From positions 186,001 through 250,000 of the forward strand of contig CATOTH010000008.1 in the NCBI GenBank assembly GCA_951813065.1: a stretch of 64,000 nt of DNA, given 5' to 3'. The translations under genes and the position numbers were made by a program. Shown here piece after piece: positions 636-58,261 of the stretch (the stretch's first letter is position 1; each line of letters begins with the position of its first letter). Source of the DNA: an uncultured Bryobacterales bacterium (GTDB taxonomy: Bacteria; Acidobacteriota; Terriglobia; Bryobacterales; UBA6623). Below the pieces are notes generated by a model. The model was not told the origin of the DNA. It worked only from the letters and a program-made list of their open reading frames with translations, and ran no database searches.

Positions 636-2132
636 CTACGCCTCCGGGATGTCCTCAACGCGAGGGTCGTTCGTTTCTTGCATCCATCGGACCAGTTCGG
701 CATGCATGTGCTGGACGGCGCCACGGGCGCTTGGCTCGCGTATGAGGTTCTTGGTCTCCCCGGGGTCGGCAGCCAGATGATAGATCTGCGAGTCGCCGCG
801 CGAATGATAGCTGTACTTCCACTCGTGTGTCCGGATGAGCCTTTGGAAATGGCCTCCGGCGGTTTCCCCTGCGGCACCCCGGTCTCGCTCCGCGAAAATC
901 GGGCGATCCAGTTTCTCCTCGCCGTCGATAAAGCCTCTCAAACTCTGACCGGCCAGCTTCGCCGGCACGGGAAGTCCGAGGTAGTCCAGGATAGTTGGAG
1001 AGACGTCGCAACTGCCCGCCTGGGTCTTGATCGTTTTTCCAGACGGAACCCGGCCGGGCCACCGGAGCAGCAGCGGGACGCGGGTCGTCTCCTCGTACAT
1101 CGAGTAGGCAGTCTTGCCGTACATTCCGTGACCGCCCTGCATGTCGCCGTGGTCGGAAGTGAAGACCACAAGAGTGTTGTCCTCTTCGCCAGACAGCCGC
1201 AATTCGTCGAGGATGCGGCCGAGGTTGGCGTCCATCATCGAGACCATCCCGTAGTACACGCCCAGGTACTCCCGCATGCCTTCGTCGCCAAGAAGCTGTC
1301 CGAAACGCCAAGCCGCTGTACTTCGATCGACATCCTGCACCGAATGACGATTGGCCGGCAGGCGGATCTCCTGGCGAGGGTGAAGGCTGTAGTAGGGCTC
1401 GTTTATGGCCCACAGCGCGTGCGGTGCCGGGAAGCTGACCGTTATGAAGAACGGTTTGCCTGATAGCATTCGAAGAGCCTCGATCGCCCTGTCCGCGATC
1501 CAAGCTTCCTCAGTATGCTCCGGTGGGACGTCGGTGCGGCCGATCCATGAGTTTGGCGGTCCGTCGCCGTCGTACCTGGCATTTGCGGATCGCACGGCCT
1601 CGGTTGAATAGATGGGCCGTCCGACCCGACTGGTTGGCCCGGCGGGTGGCTGGGGCATTCGCTGACCAATGGACCGAAAGTAGTCTCGATAGCTGAGTTC
1701 CGGATCCTGTGCATAGGAGGGTACGCGGGTCTTCTGGCCGAGATGCCATTTGCCGAACTGCCGGGCAACGTACCCGGCGTCGAGCAACGCCTGCTCGGTG
1801 GTCGGCAGGTCCGGGTCCAGCCCCGCGCTATTGCGGCTGAGGTTCTTCGTGATGCCGTGTTGGTGCGGATACAGGCCGGTCATCAGCGAGGCCCGCGTCG
1901 GGCTGCAAAACGGCGTTGGACAGAGAGCGTTCTCGAATCGCACGCCGTCGCGGGCCAGGCTGTCAATGTTGGGCGTTTGGACTGTCGCGTTTCCCGCGGA
2001 CGCGATGGCTTGGTGGTGGAGCTGGTCAGAAATGACGAGCAGTACGTTTGGGCTCCGGACGGTCTTCTCGGCGCCCGAGACCATGGTCCCGGTCAGTGCG
2101 GAAAGGACCGATCGGCGGGTGAGTGCTGACAT
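636..2132 (-). CDS. Sulfatase (formylglycine-dependent, exported)
   Basis: Alkaline-phosphatase-superfamily sulfatase of 498 residues, predicted to hydrolyse sulfate esters of a carbohydrate or aryl substrate in the periplasm. The formylglycine signature CSPTR is at residues 76-80, so Cys76 would be the residue oxidised by a maturase. The N-terminal metal region reads NVLLVISDQ, followed by TPNIDSLARDG, and a later TSDHGDMQG block supplies further metal ligands. The N-terminus has TRRSVLSAL, a possible twin-arginine or Sec signal. The frame extends further upstream, but the ATG at 2130-2132 is preceded by AGAGGG at good spacing and begins the signal-like sequence, so I start there. It faces the divergent beta-oxidation gene. 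No sulfatase-maturing enzyme lies next to it. Exact substrate is not readable from sequence. Confidence 0.93.
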   Translation of the reverse strand: MSALTRRSVLSALTGTMVSGAEKTVRSPNVLLVISDQLHHQAIASAGNATVQTPNIDSLARDGVRFENALCPTPFCSPTRASLMTGLYPHQHGITKNLSRNSAGLDPDLPTTEQALLDAGYVARQFGKWHLGQKTRVPSYAQDPELSYRDYFRSIGQRMPQPPAGPTSRVGRPIYSTEAVRSANARYDGDGPPNSWIGRTDVPPEHTEEAWIADRAIEALRMLSGKPFFITVSFPAPHALWAINEPYYSLHPRQEIRLPANRHSVQDVDRSTAAWRFGQLLGDEGMREYLGVYYGMVSMMDANLGRILDELRLSGEEDNTLVVFTSDHGDMQGGHGMYGKTAYSMYEETTRVPLLLRWPGRVPSGKTIKTQAGSCDVSPTILDYLGLPVPAKLAGQSLRGFIDGEEKLDRPIFAERDRGAAGETAGGHFQRLIRTHEWKYSYHSRGDSQIYHLAADPGETKNLIREPSARGAVQHMHAELVRWMQETNDPRVEDIPEA

Positions 2133-2528
2133 TGACCCTCTGGCGTCTCGCGAAGGTTGCGATCTGATTGTAGCGCCTAGAGCCAGCTGCTCGGGAGAGC
2201 AAGGAACGGTCTCTAGCAACGCGGGATACCGGTTGGCCCGCCAGCCTGGTCTCGTATTGCGCGAATTTGCTGCCCACGTCTTGGCGCTAGGTTCCGTCTC
2301 TGGCGTGAGCGAGGCCAGTTCTGGCTCGTGAAGGCCTCTAGCCAGAGGCCGGCTTTGGCGCCTTCGTCGCCGCTTCCATCGATGCGGGGATGGGATTTGC
2401 CGAGGACTTGAGCCGGGACCTGCGAAGCTCCGGGTCAACTGGCAAGCCCGATGTTCTCAGTCCGGTACGCTAAAGGACTTGGGCGCCTCGGAGACGACTC
2501 CCGGCGCGACGATTTCAAGGAGGTATCC
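2133..2528. promoter_or_regulatory. Divergent promoter region between sulfatase and beta-oxidation gene
   Basis: 396 bases separate the two divergent starts and must contain promoters for both. No convincing -10/-35 pair was picked out. It contains one perfect 7-bp inverted repeat at 2333-2350 (listed separately). Reading frames crossing this stretch are continuations of the flanking frames without homology. Confidence 0.4.
2333..2350. repeat. Inverted repeat, 7-bp perfect arms with 4-nt loop
   Basis: GGCCTCT and AGAGGCC are separated by AGCC. It is not followed by a T-run, so a terminator is unlikely; its place between divergent genes allows an operator, but no regulator is known. Confidence 0.45.
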
Positions 2529-4661
2529 ATGGGCGATCTAGTCCGTTTGAGCGTCGAGGATGGTGTCGGTGTAGTTACGGTTGAGAACCCTCCCGTCAAC
2601 GCACTCAGCCCCGGCGTGCCCGAAGGCATTCTGGACGGTGTCCAGCGCTTCGGCAGCGACGAAAACGTCAGGGCGATAGTCCTGATCGGAGGCGGCAGGA
2701 CCTTCATCGCCGGGGCCGACATCAAGGAGTTTGGCAAGATCACCTCCGGCGAGAAGAGGCGTGGTCCGGGTCTGATTTCTGTGATCGAGGCCTTGGAGAA
2801 CTCTTCCAAGCCAGTCGTGGCGGCTATTCACGGAACGGCGTTTGGCGGCGGGCTTGAAACTGCGCAAGGTTGTCACTATCGAGTCGCACTTCGCTCTGCT
2901 CAAGTAGGTCAGCCCGAGGTAAAGCTGGGCATCATTCCGGGTGCTCACGGCACCCAGCGGTTGCCGCGCCTTGCCGGCCTGTCGAAGGCACTCGAGATGT
3001 GTGCCCTTGGCGATCCCGTGTCCGCTGCGGATGCAGCGGACCATGGAATCGTCGACCGCTTGATCGACGGAAGCGGTTACACCGAATTGCTGGCGGGCGC
3101 GGTGTCGTTCGCCGCCGAGAAGGCGGCGGCGGGTGGACCGCACCCCAAGGCGAGCGAGCTCACTGATAATCTCCCCACCCCTGACGAGGCGGCACCCGTG
3201 TTCGCGGCTGCTCGTGAATTGGCAAAGGCGAAACGACGAGGGTTCATGGCACCGTTGAAGGCGATTGATGCGGTCGAGTGCGCGGTGACCCTGCCGTTCT
3301 CGGAAGGGATCAAGCGCGAGGCCGAGATTTTCCAGGAATGCCTTTTCTCGACGCAGTCGAAAGCGCTGATCCACGCTTTCTTCTCGGAGCGCCGGGTGCG
3401 CAAGGTGCCCGACGTGCCCAAGGAGACGGCGACCCGCGAGATTCGATCCGCGGCCGTGATCGGTGCAGGCACGATGGGCGGGGGGATCGCCATGGCCTAT
3501 GCCAACGCCGGAATCCCTGTGCGGCTGAAAGAGGTCACGCAAGAAGCGCTTGATTGCGGCTACGCGACGATACGCAAGAACTATGAGCGATCTGTCCGGC
3601 GAGGCCGCTTCACGCCGGAGTACGTCCAGCAGCGTCTGGCCCTGATTACACCCCAGACCGGTTGGGACGGTTTCGAGGCGGCCGACATCATCGTCGAGGC
3701 TGTGTTCGAGAACATGGCGCTGAAGAAGGCAGTGTTTGGCGACATCGACAGGCTGGCGCGGCCCGGCGCGATCCTCGCGTCGAACACGTCAACGCTTAGC
3801 ATCGACGAAATCGCATCGTCGACGTCCCGCCCGCAGGACGTTATCGGTCACCATTTCTTCAGCCCGGCCAATGTCATGCGCCTGCTGGAGATCGTGCGCG
3901 GTGCCGCGACATCCAAGGACGTCGTCGCAACTTCCATGGCCCTCGCCCGCAGACTGCGCAAGGTCGGCGTCTTGGTGGGCAATTGCCACGGATTCGTCGG
4001 GAACCGGATGTTTCATCCATACCGGCGTGAGGCTCAATTCCTCGCGGAGGAGGGTGCCCGACCGGCTGAGGTGGACCGCGTCCTGTACGAGTTCGGGGCC
4101 GCCATGGGGCCGATGGCGGTGGGCGATTTGGCCGGCCTCGATGTTGGAATGCGGGTCCGCAAGGAAGCGCCGCACCTGTATCCCCCCGGTACCCGCCGGC
4201 CGCTAGCCGAGGATGCGCTGTGCGAAATGGGTCGGTACGGGCAAAAAACGAAGGCGGGCTGGTACCGGTATGGCCAGGACCGGAGCCGCCATGAGGATCC
4301 GGAAGTGGATGCAATGCTCAAGCGAGTCGCGGCTGAGGCCGGGATCGAGCAACGCGAGATCTCTGACCAGGAAATCCTCGACCGCGTGGTCTACGCGTTA
4401 GTGAACGAGGGCGCCCGCATTCTTGAAGAGGGCTTTGCCTTGCGAGCCTCGGACATCGACATCATTTATCTGTACGGTTATGGCTTCCCGGCGTTTCGCG
4501 GGGGGCCGATGTTCTACGCTGACACGGTCGGTCTTGGGAAGGTGCTGGCTAGGGTGGAGGAATTCCACTCCCAGCACGGGCACTGGTGGCGGCCGGCATC
4601 CCTGCTGAAGGAACTGGCGGAGAACCGCGGCACGTTTTCCGAGTGGGACCGATCGCGCTGA
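2529..4661 (+). CDS. fadJ: Bifunctional enoyl-CoA hydratase / 3-hydroxyacyl-CoA dehydrogenase
   Basis: Two-domain beta-oxidation enzyme of 710 residues, cytoplasmic. It hydrates trans-2-enoyl-CoA and then oxidises the 3-hydroxyacyl-CoA with NAD+. The N-terminal crotonase half has the oxyanion segment [21 protein letters not shown] with the first catalytic Glu and [11 protein letters not shown] with the second. The middle starts the dehydrogenase with the Rossmann motif [10 protein letters not shown], then [10 protein letters not shown] carrying the catalytic His and [12 protein letters not shown]. The frame is open 26 codons upstream, but the ATG at 2529 has AAGGAGG five bases before it, so I use that start. 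Length and order match the FadJ/FadB alpha-subunit family; the partner thiolase is not adjacent. Whether it is short- or long-chain specific cannot be told. Confidence 0.94.
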
Positions 4662-18918: not shown

Positions 18919-20406
18919 CTAGGAGTCGTCCTCGTTGTGCCATTGGATCTGTTGCATGTTGGTCTTTGGAGGTGGGGGCCAGTGGTGTCCGCGCTGGCTC
19001 GAAAGGCCCCGATTGGGGCCTGGCCGGAATCTCCGGGCTGGCCGTCCCTCCAGCCGCCCTTCGTGCGCCCACTCCTCGTCTCCGCCGTAGAACTGACCGA
19101 TCAGGATAGTGCTTAGATCGTCCAGAATTGTTGCGTAGCTTGGCTGGCCGGATAGATTCTCCAACTCCAAGGGGTCGGCCTCCAAGTCAAACAACTGGCG
19201 TACGTTCCCGGCGGGGTAGTAGATCAACTTGAAGTTGTCCTTCCGGATCATTCGAGTGGCGTGGTCTCCTTCGCCCACTTCGCCGTACAGCCACTGACGT
19301 TTCTTGTCACTGACCATCGAGAGCCCTTCGACGCTTTCCGGGCGCTCGATGCCTGCCAGGTCCAGGAGTGTCGGCATCACGTCCTGCCAGCCCACGAGTC
19401 GGTCGTCGACTCGGTGGTGTCCGATGCGACGGTCCCCTTCAGCACCCACTAGGATCAGGGGAATATTCGTGGAAGGCTCATAGAAGAGTCTCTTGGCCCA
19501 CATGCCGTGACGTCCCAGCATGTCGCCGTGGTCCGACGTGAAGCAAATTACGGTGTTGTCGAGCAGTCCCTCTTCTCGAAGCGTCCCGACAACCACTCGC
19601 AATTGGTGATCGATGTGGGTGCAGAGTGCATAGAACGCTTGCAGGGCGTCGCGGGTCTGCCGCGGTCCCATGTGGGCGTTACGACCCCGCACAGCCTGGA
19701 GAAGGTACGGCAATTCGCCGTGGCACCAGGAGCCTTCTCTTGGCAACTCCAGGTCGGCGGAGCGGTAGCTCTCCAAGTAGGCCTCGAGCGGGACCATCGG
19801 CGGGTGCGGGTGCCTGTATGAGAGGTACCAGAATGCCGGCCTGCCCGGATCGCGACGCTTGACGGTCCGAACCATCTCTTGCGTGGCCCAGTTTGTCGCG
19901 TGCAGGTTTTCGGGCAGGTGCCACGTGCGCACCGTATAGTCGTTATTGCTCATGCCGTGGTCGAATTGTGCTCCGGCGCAGCCCTGGTTTGCGAGGAACG
20001 CTTCGTAGTCGTCGACGACTCCATACTGCGTCCGGCCCTCCTCGTCGAGGGTCACGTCGTCGAAGCCGATTCGGTTCCGCTGCGGGTAGACGTGCAGTTT
20101 GCCCACCGCGTAGGCTTGGTAGCCCGCGTCCCTGAATGCCTGCGCCATCGTCGGCAAGTCGGGCATCGGCATTGTCTCGCCAAAGTCCCGGTCGCCATGT
20201 GTTCGAGGACTCACGCCTGTCATCAGCGTTCGGCGGGCCGGGATACAAACCGGGCATTCGCTGTAGGCGTTGCGGAATCGCACTCCGCTGCGCGCCAACT
20301 CGTCGAGGGTCGGAGTCAGGATGCTCGGGTGTTCGGCCGCACCCAGTAACTCGGCCGGCCAATGATCGGTGGAAATCAGTAGTACATTCGGTTGCTTTGC
20401 CGTCAT
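18919..20406 (-). CDS. Sulfatase, apparently cytoplasmic
   Basis: A 495-residue arylsulfatase-type enzyme. Cys54 lies in CIPAR (54-58), the formylglycine signature; NVLLISTDHWPAELL and TSDHGDMLGRHGMWAK supply metal ligands. Unlike the other three sulfatases here there is no signal peptide: the sulfatase core starts seven residues after the ATG at 20404-20406. If matured, it would act on small sulfated compounds in the cytoplasm. The last 50 residues are Arg/Pro/Gln-rich and probably outside the fold. It lies just downstream of the tRNA-Sec gene on the same strand. Confidence 0.93.
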   Translation of the reverse strand: MTAKQPNVLLISTDHWPAELLGAAEHPSILTPTLDELARSGVRFRNAYSECPVCIPARRTLMTGVSPRTHGDRDFGETMPMPDLPTMAQAFRDAGYQAYAVGKLHVYPQRNRIGFDDVTLDEEGRTQYGVVDDYEAFLANQGCAGAQFDHGMSNNDYTVRTWHLPENLHATNWATQEMVRTVKRRDPGRPAFWYLSYRHPHPPMVPLEAYLESYRSADLELPREGSWCHGELPYLLQAVRGRNAHMGPRQTRDALQAFYALCTHIDHQLRVVVGTLREEGLLDNTVICFTSDHGDMLGRHGMWAKRLFYEPSTNIPLILVGAEGDRRIGHHRVDDRLVGWQDVMPTLLDLAGIERPESVEGLSMVSDKKRQWLYGEVGEGDHATRMIRKDNFKLIYYPAGNVRQLFDLEADPLELENLSGQPSYATILDDLSTILIGQFYGGDEEWAHEGRLEGRPARRFRPGPNRGLSSQRGHHWPPPPKTNMQQIQWHNEDDS

Positions 20407-20460: not shown

Positions 20461-20555
20461 TGGCGGAAGCTAGTGGGAGTCGAACCCACCCTTGACGCTG
20501 AGCGCCAAACAGCGGTTTTGAAGACCGGGCCCGACACCGGCCGGGATTAGCTTCC
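20461..20555 (-). tRNA. selC: Selenocysteine tRNA (anticodon UCA)
   Basis: Exactly 95 nt including an encoded CCA. The acceptor stem is 8 bp (GGAAGCTA with TAGCTTCC), discriminator G, T-stem 5 bp (GTGGG/CCCAC) with loop TTCGACT, the 8+5 arrangement of bacterial tRNA-Sec. The D-stem is 6 bp (CCCGGC/GTCGGG with one G-U) and the long variable arm folds as TGGCGC-TCA-GCGTCA. The anticodon loop is CTTCAAA, with TCA at 20519-20521. No ordinary tRNA has this shape. It implies that the organism decodes UGA as selenocysteine, so selA, selB, selD and at least one selenoprotein should exist elsewhere; none is in this window. Confidence 0.97.
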
Positions 20556-20586: not shown

Positions 20587-21648
20587 TCAAGTGATATGGG
20601 CCCCCTGGGCCTCGACGTAGACAGCGTATAGGCTCTGGCTCGCCGTCATGAACAGCCGGTTGCGCTTCACGCCTCCGAAACAGACGTTCGAGCAGATTTC
20701 GGGCAGCTTGATCAGTCCGATGCGGTCACCGTCTGGCGCGAAGACATGCACACCGTCGTAGCCGTCCCCAATCCAGCCTGCGGACGACCAGATGTTGCCA
20801 TCCGTGTCGCAACGGATGCCGTCAGCATTGCCAGCTTGCTCGAATCCGTCCATTTGCATGGACACGAAACGTCGGCCGTTGCGTAGCGACCGCCCGTTGT
20901 CGACATCCCAGACCTTGATCTCGCGGTCCGCCTCGGGGTAATGCGACGCACCGGTGTCAGCGACGTAGAGCATCTTGTAGTCCGGCGAGAAGCAAAGCCC
21001 GTTCGGCTTGAAGATCTCGTCCGCGACCAATTCCATCTTGCCGGTTGCACCATCGATGCGATAGACGGCTTCCTTGATCTCAAGAGGTGCCTTGTTGCCT
21101 TCGTAGTGCATCAGGCTGCCATAGCCAGGATCCGTGAACCAGATATTGCCGTTCGGATCGACGACCGCGTCGTTCGGAGCATTCAAGCGCTTTCCCTGCC
21201 AGCTGTCTGCCAAGACAGTCACCGTCCCGTCGTGCTCGTACCGCACGAGGCGCCGGTTGCCGTGCTCGCAGGAGAGCTGCCTGCCGTCCCAGTCGAACGT
21301 GTTGCCGTTCGAGTTGCCCGACGGGTTGCGGAAGACGCTAACGTGCCCGTCGTCGTCGAGCCACCGCATTTGCACGTTGTTGGGGATATCCGAGAAGACT
21401 AGGTATCTTCCGACGGCGCTCCATGCCGGTCCCTCCGCCCAGAGCGTTCCAACATGCAATCGCTGGATCGGCGTGTTGCCGAGCTTGTACTTGTTGAAGC
21501 GACTGTCGAGCGCAATGATGTCTGGATCGGGGTACCGCGTAGGCGTGACATTGGTCCAGTCGCGTTCCGCCAATGAACTCGCTGGCGCCGCGAGTGTTGC
21601 GGCTGCGGCTCCGAGAAACGCCCGGCGGCTTGTCCCTGGATGTTCCAT
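20587..21648 (-). CDS. SMP-30/gluconolactonase-family protein, Tat-exported
   Basis: A 353-residue six-bladed beta-propeller of the SMP-30/gluconolactonase/LRE family, which opens sugar lactones with a bound divalent metal. Typical blocks are LWAEGPAWSAVGRYLVFSD with the metal-binding Glu, RLNAPNDAVVDPNGNIWFTDPGYG with Asn/Asp ligands, and NADGIRCDTDGNIW with the catalytic-side Asp. SRRAFLGAAAATLAAP is a clear twin-arginine signal, so it acts in the periplasm. The frame is open 51 codons further, but the ATG at 21646-21648 starts the Tat signal. It follows the tonB gene on the same strand with a 71-base gap. Confidence 0.92.
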   Translation of the reverse strand: MEHPGTSRRAFLGAAAATLAAPASSLAERDWTNVTPTRYPDPDIIALDSRFNKYKLGNTPIQRLHVGTLWAEGPAWSAVGRYLVFSDIPNNVQMRWLDDDGHVSVFRNPSGNSNGNTFDWDGRQLSCEHGNRRLVRYEHDGTVTVLADSWQGKRLNAPNDAVVDPNGNIWFTDPGYGSLMHYEGNKAPLEIKEAVYRIDGATGKMELVADEIFKPNGLCFSPDYKMLYVADTGASHYPEADREIKVWDVDNGRSLRNGRRFVSMQMDGFEQAGNADGIRCDTDGNIWSSAGWIGDGYDGVHVFAPDGDRIGLIKLPEICSNVCFGGVKRNRLFMTASQSLYAVYVEAQGAHIT

Positions 21649-21719
21649 CGCTCTGAAAATGTAGCAGATCCCAAGGGGTGGGATTCCTGCGCGCTTGGCG
21701 GCTGGTGGACCGGGAGGTG

Positions 21720-22994
21720 TTAGAGGAGACGGAAACTCACTTGGATCTGCGCCAGGACCTTGACCGGCTTGCCGTCCTTCTTGCCGGGCGAGAATTTCCA
21801 CTGCTTGACGGCTTCGACCGCCTTTTCGTCCAAGCCTAGTCCCAGGCTGCGCAGCACGCGGATGTTATGGGCCACGCCGTCTTCCCAGACTTCAACTGAC
21901 AACATCACAGTGCCTTGGTACTTGGCCTTGCGCGCCTCCTCAGAGTATTCCGGCTCAACCTTGAACAGCAGTCTCGGTTGCGACACGCCGCCACCAATGC
22001 GGAAGACGCCGCCGCCGATTCCGCCTCCGGAACCCGGACCGACACCCGAGCCGCGCCCTGAACCCACGCCGGTTCCCCGTCCTGAACCGATGCCGCCACC
22101 AGTTCCCGGACCGGCCGACGGGGGGCCGTCTGCTCCGAACGGATCACCGAAGACCGAGAGATCCATACCGGGCACGGTGATGTCGGGCGGTACTCGCACG
22201 GTCGGCTCGACGGACAGGATCGGATTCTCGTTCCGGATGATTGGGCTCGGCGGTGCCAACTGGGGATCCAACGAGAATCTCGGCAGCTTGCCACGGCTGG
22301 CTGGCATCGGGGAATTCGTCCCGCCCCCGCCCCCGCCCCCGCTCTCGTCGGCCTTTTGCGGAGCGCGGAGTTGCGCCAGGTACGGCGAAATGTCGACCGG
22401 GATGATCAGAGTGACGGAGCCCTTGTTCGCTTCAACGTAGTCGTCTCCCTGGAAACCAAATACCCCGATCACGAACAGCACATGCGCGAGCGCCGTGATC
22501 CACATGCCCTCGCGCCGGCGGCTGAACCCTCCCCAGATCTCCTTGACTTGGACTGGCTTCGAAGTCAGCTTCAGCGGCGGAGCATTCTTGAGTTCACGAT
22601 CGAGCCGGTACGCTTCGTGAAGGCCGGACCACCACGGCAATGCCAGTGTCTTGATATTCAAGGGAGGCAGGTCGAGTTCCCCCGGTTGTGCTGCGGGGAA
22701 GGACGGGGGCGGGGGAAGTTTTCTTTCCGCAGAGACCGCGACCAATGTTTCCGGGATTCCGAGCCACCATGGCCGGCTCAGCGAATACACGTTGGCGTCG
22801 CCCAATTCGGGCACACCGGGAACTGCCGGGGGGAATTCTGGGAGCGGTCCGAATTTCGGGGGGTTAAGGCCATCGGCGACCTCCCGCATGAAGTGCCGCC
22901 ACCAGGGTTCATGGATCGATTCGATGACAAGCGGTCCCCTTCCCGGGATTCCGAGCCCTTGGTCGGTTGTTGCTTGAGACGAATCTTCCCGCAT
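21720..22994 (-). CDS. TonB-like energy transducer with long cytoplasmic repeat tail
   Basis: A 424-residue TonB-family protein. One transmembrane segment (about 164-180, WITALAHVLFVIGVFGF) follows a 160-residue cytoplasmic part containing three copies of a PWW motif at residues 30-32, 75-77 and 120-122, exactly 45 apart. After the membrane comes a Gly/Pro/Ser-rich periplasmic linker, with seven consecutive Gly and a GSGRGTGVGSG region, and a C-terminal TonB domain (EPEYSEEARKAKYQGTVML, LDEKAVEAVKQWKFSPGKKDG). It should couple the proton-motive force to outer-membrane receptors. The ATG at 22992-22994 has GAGAG upstream. ExbB/ExbD are not adjacent. Confidence 0.92.
   Translation of the reverse strand: MREDSSQATTDQGLGIPGRGPLVIESIHEPWWRHFMREVADGLNPPKFGPLPEFPPAVPGVPELGDANVYSLSRPWWLGIPETLVAVSAERKLPPPPSFPAAQPGELDLPPLNIKTLALPWWSGLHEAYRLDRELKNAPPLKLTSKPVQVKEIWGGFSRRREGMWITALAHVLFVIGVFGFQGDDYVEANKGSVTLIIPVDISPYLAQLRAPQKADESGGGGGGGTNSPMPASRGKLPRFSLDPQLAPPSPIIRNENPILSVEPTVRVPPDITVPGMDLSVFGDPFGADGPPSAGPGTGGGIGSGRGTGVGSGRGSGVGPGSGGGIGGGVFRIGGGVSQPRLLFKVEPEYSEEARKAKYQGTVMLSVEVWEDGVAHNIRVLRSLGLGLDEKAVEAVKQWKFSPGKKDGKPVKVLAQIQVSFRLL
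22320..22340 (-). repeat. G-rich hexanucleotide repeat with G-quadruplex pattern inside tonB-like gene
   Basis: On the coding (minus) strand three GGGGG runs and one GGG run are separated by single C bases, fitting the four-tract, short-loop G-quadruplex pattern. It encodes the seven-glycine stretch of the TonB linker. The repeat unit is six bases, so slippage would add or remove Gly pairs without shifting the frame. Confidence 0.8.
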
Positions 22995-57304: not shown

Positions 57305-58261
57305 ATGCCCACTGCGGCGGGCGATCCTAGTGAGGAGGGACGTCTGATCGCTGAGATCGAGACGCTTTGGGAAGGCCGCTCCAATTCCGGGCTGATCCTA
57401 GCTGGTGGAGACGACTGCGCGATCGTGCAGCCGCCCGCTGACGGAGTGGAACTGTTGCTCGCCACAGACCAGATCGTCGAGGGCCGCCACTTCGTGCCGG
57501 ACAAGCACCCGCCCTCCGCCCTGGGGCGCAAGGCGCTGGCTCGTTCCCTGAGCGACATTGCCGCGATGGGAGGCCGCCCGCTCTATTTCTTGCAGGCACT
57601 CTGCCTGCCGCAGTGGGCGACCGGCGACTGGCACAGGGCGTTTCAGCGGGGTATGCGCGAGCTGGCATCCAACGCGGGACTTGCCGGGCTCGCCCTGGCC
57701 GGCGGCGATATCTCCGGCGGAGACAGTTTCGTCGCTAGTCTGACCGTTGTCGGGTGCGTGGAGCAGGGAACTGCGATGCGGCGGTCCGGTGCCCGCCCCG
57801 GCGACCGCGTCTACCTGTCCGGATCGGTAGGGGGCTCCGCCATGGGCCTTGAGCTATTGCTGGGCGAGGCCGCTTCGGACTTGGACCATCCGGCAATTCG
57901 CAGGCACTGCGAGCCCCTGCCTCAACTCGAACTGGGCCGCGCCCTCAGGTCCCTGCCGGCGTCAGCGGCGATTGATCTCAGCGACGGGCTGGCGACGGAT
58001 GCTAACCGTCTGGCAGCGGCCAGCGGCGCCGCAATCCTCCTCGACAGCTCGTCAGTGCCGCTGTTTGCCGGAGCCCGTATAGAGAACGCCGTGCGCTCCG
58101 GAGAGGAGTACGAGTTGCTCTTCACGCTCCCGCCCGGCTCGGATCCACCGCAGGGGTTCGCCACAACCGAAGTCGGCCGCGTGGACTTCGGCACGGGCGT
58201 TTGGCTCGACACAGGTCTAGGCCGGTCGCGTCTCGGTCCGGAAGGCTTCTCGCACTTCTAG
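57305..58261 (+). CDS. thiL: Thiamine-monophosphate kinase
   Basis: A 318-residue ThiL, which phosphorylates thiamine phosphate to TPP, the last step of thiamine synthesis. Family blocks are GGDDCAIVQPP, LATDQIVEGRHFVP, LALAGGDISGGDSFV, YLSGSVGGSAMGLELL and DLSDGLATDANRLA. GGAAG is six bases before the ATG. The AIR-synthase fold is shared with SelD, but the motifs and length are ThiL. No TPP riboswitch was recognised upstream. The gene is monocistronic in appearance. Confidence 0.96.
   Translation: MPTAAGDPSEEGRLIAEIETLWEGRSNSGLILAGGDDCAIVQPPADGVELLLATDQIVEGRHFVPDKHPPSALGRKALARSLSDIAAMGGRPLYFLQALCLPQWATGDWHRAFQRGMRELASNAGLAGLALAGGDISGGDSFVASLTVVGCVEQGTAMRRSGARPGDRVYLSGSVGGSAMGLELLLGEAASDLDHPAIRRHCEPLPQLELGRALRSLPASAAIDLSDGLATDANRLAAASGAAILLDSSSVPLFAGARIENAVRSGEEYELLFTLPPGSDPPQGFATTEVGRVDFGTGVWLDTGLGRSRLGPEGFSHF

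Follow-up and report, generated by a model that had tools for sequence, protein, structure and literature searches.

The selC gene of this Bryobacterales bacterium is very probably functional and forms part of an ordinary bacterial selenocysteine (Sec) system with a dispersed gene arrangement, a reading given a probability of roughly 96%. Function is probable, and the lone position ordinary for this group, because the genome (5.59 Mb, 11 contigs, 95.6% complete) encodes the remaining selenium genes and at least six predicted selenoproteins elsewhere; the 64-kb window (the whole stretch of DNA analyzed) lies in contig C8. The evidence comprised an intact tRNA gene, intact selA, selB, and selD genes, conservation of the UGA codon and SECIS of a Trx7/PDZ gene, and the co-inheritance of selC with selA.

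An ARAGORN scan of the window revealed a single tRNA gene, tRNA-Sec, with the TCA anticodon at tRNA position 35 (Table 1), and Rfam model RF01852 matched over its full length at 20555-20465 (72.3 bits, above the gathering score of 47; E 7.3e-13). The gene was intact at 95 nt including the encoded CCA, and its acceptor stem, GGAAGCUA/UAGCUUCC, read from the sequence as 8 bp and its T arm as GUGGG-UUCGACU-CCCAC with a 5-bp stem. The UCA anticodon, long variable arm, and G73 were all present according to ARAGORN, the sequence, and the parse of selC loci, such that the claim of a complete tRNA-Sec in an earlier note made from the sequence alone was borne out. Of the 30 parsed selC loci (the window's own among them), 28 had the TCA, the CCA, and stems of 8 bp (acceptor) and 5 bp (T), and selC sequence and structure were maintained across the genus and order. 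The outer two consensus anticodon-stem positions are non-standard pairs, with the same letters in two genus members (L040 and L042). Counting against a functional selC were a crude scan that found no sigma-70-like promoter near it and, as described below, three genomes with selA but no strong selC match and the fold energies of three predicted SECIS hairpins.

Table 1. Positions of selC, its parts, and its two flanking genes in the 64-kb window.
Feature	Position	Strand	Basis
Sulfatase gene, directly downstream of selC, not in Sec system	18919..20406	-	Pfam PF00884; adjoins selC in genus and G014
selC, 95-nt tRNA-Sec gene with its encoded CCA	20461..20555	-	ARAGORN; RF01852 72.3 bits; parse of 30 selC loci
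selC G73 and encoded CCA (CCA = 20463-20461)	20461..20464	-	Sequence
selC acceptor stem, 3' strand, 8 nt	20465..20472	-	Sequence
selC T arm (5-bp stem, UUCGACU loop)	20473..20489	-	Sequence
selC anticodon UCA	20519..20521	-	ARAGORN; sequence
selC acceptor stem, 5' strand, 8 nt	20548..20555	-	Sequence
SMP-30/gluconolactonase gene, directly upstream of selC, not in Sec system	20587..21801	-	Pfam PF08450; kept beside selC in genus

The solitary position of selC between the sulfatase and SMP-30 genes was confirmed by their PF00884 and PF08450 domains, with no selenium gene adjacent; selC occupies a 180-bp gap between them and all three genes lie on the minus strand. Several members of the genus have this gene order, and in G014, from a different genus of the same family, selC is likewise adjoined by the sulfatase. 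Enterobacteria are known to have integrations at selC and tRNA genes are common targets of mobile elements, by which the gene could have recently arrived or been displaced; the shared flanks in the genus, the sulfatase in G014, and the presence of selC in 11/11 genus genomes leave this next to no probability. The conserved, in-line position on one strand could also reflect co-transcription of sulfatase, selC, and SMP-30, linking Sec capacity to the use of sulfated sugars in the genus, although this was considered very unlikely.

No Sec machinery gene besides selC was found in the window. A SelD-like match at 57398-58078 (64 bits, below the cut-off) was rejected as an AIR-synthase-domain protein that is probably ThiL-like. 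Every TGA in the window was scanned for coding potential and no convincing read-through candidate emerged, in agreement with the earlier statement that UGA-ended frames near selC lack a convincing continuation. Ten flagged sites were judged by inspection, without a homology search of each, and rejected as natural gene ends, adjacent-gene junctions, or wrong-strand frames.

The search for selA, selB, and selD that the earlier note had proposed was run on the genome and identified all three without internal stops. One clear copy of selA was encoded on contig C6 (131551-132897; TIGR00474, 509 bits against a cut-off of 268) and one of selB on C1 (186976-188850; TIGR00475, 358 bits against 242), while selD was located at 723148-724056 of C1 (TIGR00476, 295.6 bits against 125). 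These genes were far from one another and from selC, and fdhA was likewise dispersed. The selD gene constitutes the C-terminal half of an oxidoreductase-SelD fusion with an open frame of 753 aa, the TIGR03169 part of which scored 483 bits. At this locus (L012, contig C1 of G000, 1393-3648 on the minus strand), SelD follows the pyridine-nucleotide oxidoreductase domain and carries Cys, not Sec; its translation contains CKGCASK, which, judged by eye only, may correspond to the active-site Cys and Lys of E. coli. A search of the genome for SelU (ybbB) gave no match. The possibility that selC is a relic of Sec machinery since lost drew on its isolation and the absence of Sec genes from the rest of the window, and the earlier note had held that a genome devoid of selA, selB, and selD would make it so. 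With the three genes intact in the same genome, selC conserved in sequence and structure across the genus and order, and UGA-containing genes with conserved SECIS present, the relic reading fails and its probability is practically negligible.

For selC, we infer tRNA charging, Sec synthesis, and actual insertion from the established bacterial pathway of SerRS, SelA, SelD, and SelB steps (PMC1794560; PMC13188914). In this pathway, SerRS would charge tRNA-Sec with serine, SelA would turn the serine on the tRNA into Sec using selenophosphate from SelD, and SelB would bring the Sec-tRNA to SECIS-bearing UGA codons. Of the genes involved, selC, selA, selB, and selD were identified here.

A TGA scan around selA identified a Trx7/PDZ gene approximately 0.8 kb downstream of it with the site FLEFRCAP-UGA-RAGRAFDAQVVL and 358 codons beyond the UGA. 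The protein scored 402.3 bits against NF041199 (cut-off 300) and displays RCAPU as the CxxU motif of its thioredoxin domain, with the family listed as CxxU in a 2026 inventory (PMC13188914, Table 1). Its named relatives, at 63-68% identity, were from Acidobacteriota MAGs assigned to Bryobacterales or Terriglobia, which makes the organism almost certainly a member of Bryobacterales. The in-frame TGA was present in 20/20 orthologues of related genomes and in 96 of 100 loci drawn from two partly overlapping collections, with Cys in the remaining 4/100, which were Verrucomicrobiales, Akkermansiaceae, and Lentisphaerales records. A predicted SECIS hairpin (GCACA-GGU-UGUGC) lies 24-36 nt past the UGA, and its pairs were intact in 60 to 73 of the 73 distinct UGA sequences. 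Compensatory changes included, at one pair, the replacement of C-G by G-C or A-T and, at a second, that of G-C by C-G, and a shifted register restored pairing in five Planctomycetota sequences. The six hairpin codons also had the highest synonymous conservation among the 36 stretches tested (0.945 vs. a mean of 0.68 elsewhere).

These sites also bear on whether the tRNA inserts serine at UGA, or acts as a general suppressor, rather than serving Sec, since tRNA-Sec is first charged with serine in the established pathway and use outside Sec synthesis is conceivable. This reading was rated extremely unlikely given that the tRNA has the T stem, acceptor length, and long extra arm typical of tRNA-Sec, SelA and SelB are present, and UGA occurs at known kinds of Sec position where the four exceptions carry Cys, not Ser.

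Several further features of the Trx7/PDZ genes were observed. Homologues in two Planctomycetota MAGs (L162 and L166, near position 3100) contain two in-frame TGAs, giving R-U-x-x-U vs. CxxU, and are possibly a double-Sec form. The orthologue in G035 (L078) has one TAG in addition to the TGA, possibly from decay or assembly error. In the genome studied here, a small gene (L046:12521-13066; G000 C6) overlaps the end of the Trx7/PDZ gene and weakly matches DsbD_N (17.5 bits, below the cut-off), which suggests a linked thiol-redox partner.

Targeted searches of the genome identified six genes, as a lower bound, with an in-frame UGA at the Sec sites of described families: Trx7/PDZ, an FdhA-like gene, two peroxiredoxins, and two Prx/DsbD-N genes. 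The formate dehydrogenase alpha-like subunit has its TGA in CNRT-U-HAPSV. The frame scored 608.9 bits against TIGR01591, below the 666.25 cut-off, matching the profile from position 49 only, and as taken it may lack the N-terminus; PF00384 was over its cut-off and the FdhA-like label was given from the Sec motif and the family match. The two peroxiredoxins (AhpC-TSA domains) have their TGA in FTGG-U and LSGG-U, of which the former agrees with the known TxxU motif and the latter reads SxxU, T/SxxU/C being counted as the Prx site (PMC1794560). The two Prx-like/DsbD_N fusions have theirs in W-U-PYC and W-U-PFC. By motif, the FdhA-like, peroxiredoxin, and Prx/DsbD_N genes are predicted members of known selenoprotein types. 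The predicted hairpins of these genes varied in support (z-scores of -0.2 to -3.0), and for three of the six predicted SECIS hairpins the fold energy was not clearly better than that of shuffles. The CMD (AhpD-like) and DSBA families of the genome had no TGA forms, and a search of the genome for a SelW-like Rdx gave no match. UGA recoding in the organism, as originally proposed, is strongly supported by intact selA, selB, and selD together with the UGA-containing genes, at least six in number, that belong to known selenoprotein types.

Comparison of 61 related genomes revealed that selC and selA are co-inherited. A strong selC (over 60 bits, with strict RNA search filters) was identified in 49/61 genomes, all 49 with selA over the cut-off, and both genes were absent from nine. 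The other three (G018, G020, and G034), two of which are fragmented and incomplete, had selA without a strong selC match. All 11 genomes of the genus encoded selC. Most genomes of another genus, g8 (G019, G021, G032, G045, G050, and G058), were without selA and a strong selC, whereas the two genes are present in G040, a contrast likely due to the Sec trait having been lost or gained in particular lineages. The oddity implied by the earlier note in selC standing alone was not upheld, as the genes were separated by 22 kb to megabases in the seven genomes with selC and selA on the same contig (G008, G013, G014, G022, G031, G038, and G048); as far as contiguous genomes show, selC thus usually stands alone in the order.

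A possible puzzle is thus settled as ordinary, the lone selC belonging to a Sec system that is complete and dispersed. The literature searched contained no paper on selenocysteine in Bryobacterales. This Bryobacterales genus is to be counted among Sec-using bacteria. For annotation, standard gene callers would truncate or mis-start at least six genes of the genome at UGA.

Everything found belongs to described kinds, namely a dispersed bacterial Sec system and known selenoprotein families. The gene resembles bacterial tRNA-Sec (RF01852) in its 8+5 acceptor/T architecture, UCA, long variable arm, G73, and encoded CCA, and the only difference seen was in the two non-standard outer anticodon-stem positions. 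The Trx7/PDZ protein shares the Thioredoxin_7 and PDZ domains, CxxU site, and above-cut-off score of the NF041199 (seleno)protein; no difference was found, and the gene is placed near selA. Similar to known oxidoreductase-SelD fusions, the open frame joins an N-terminal TIGR03169 domain to SelD, although the SelD here is the Cys form and not itself a selenoprotein. A selC apart from selAB is familiar, such as in E. coli. Nested selB-selC genes are also known (PMC8124441), and selA-selB-selC operons with a neighboring fdhA occur in Alpha-, Beta-, and Gammaproteobacteria/Pseudomonadales (PMC1794560). The Bryobacterales genome has the same genes as these operons and a predicted FdhA selenoprotein, whereas its selA, selB, selC, selD, and fdhA are all dispersed.
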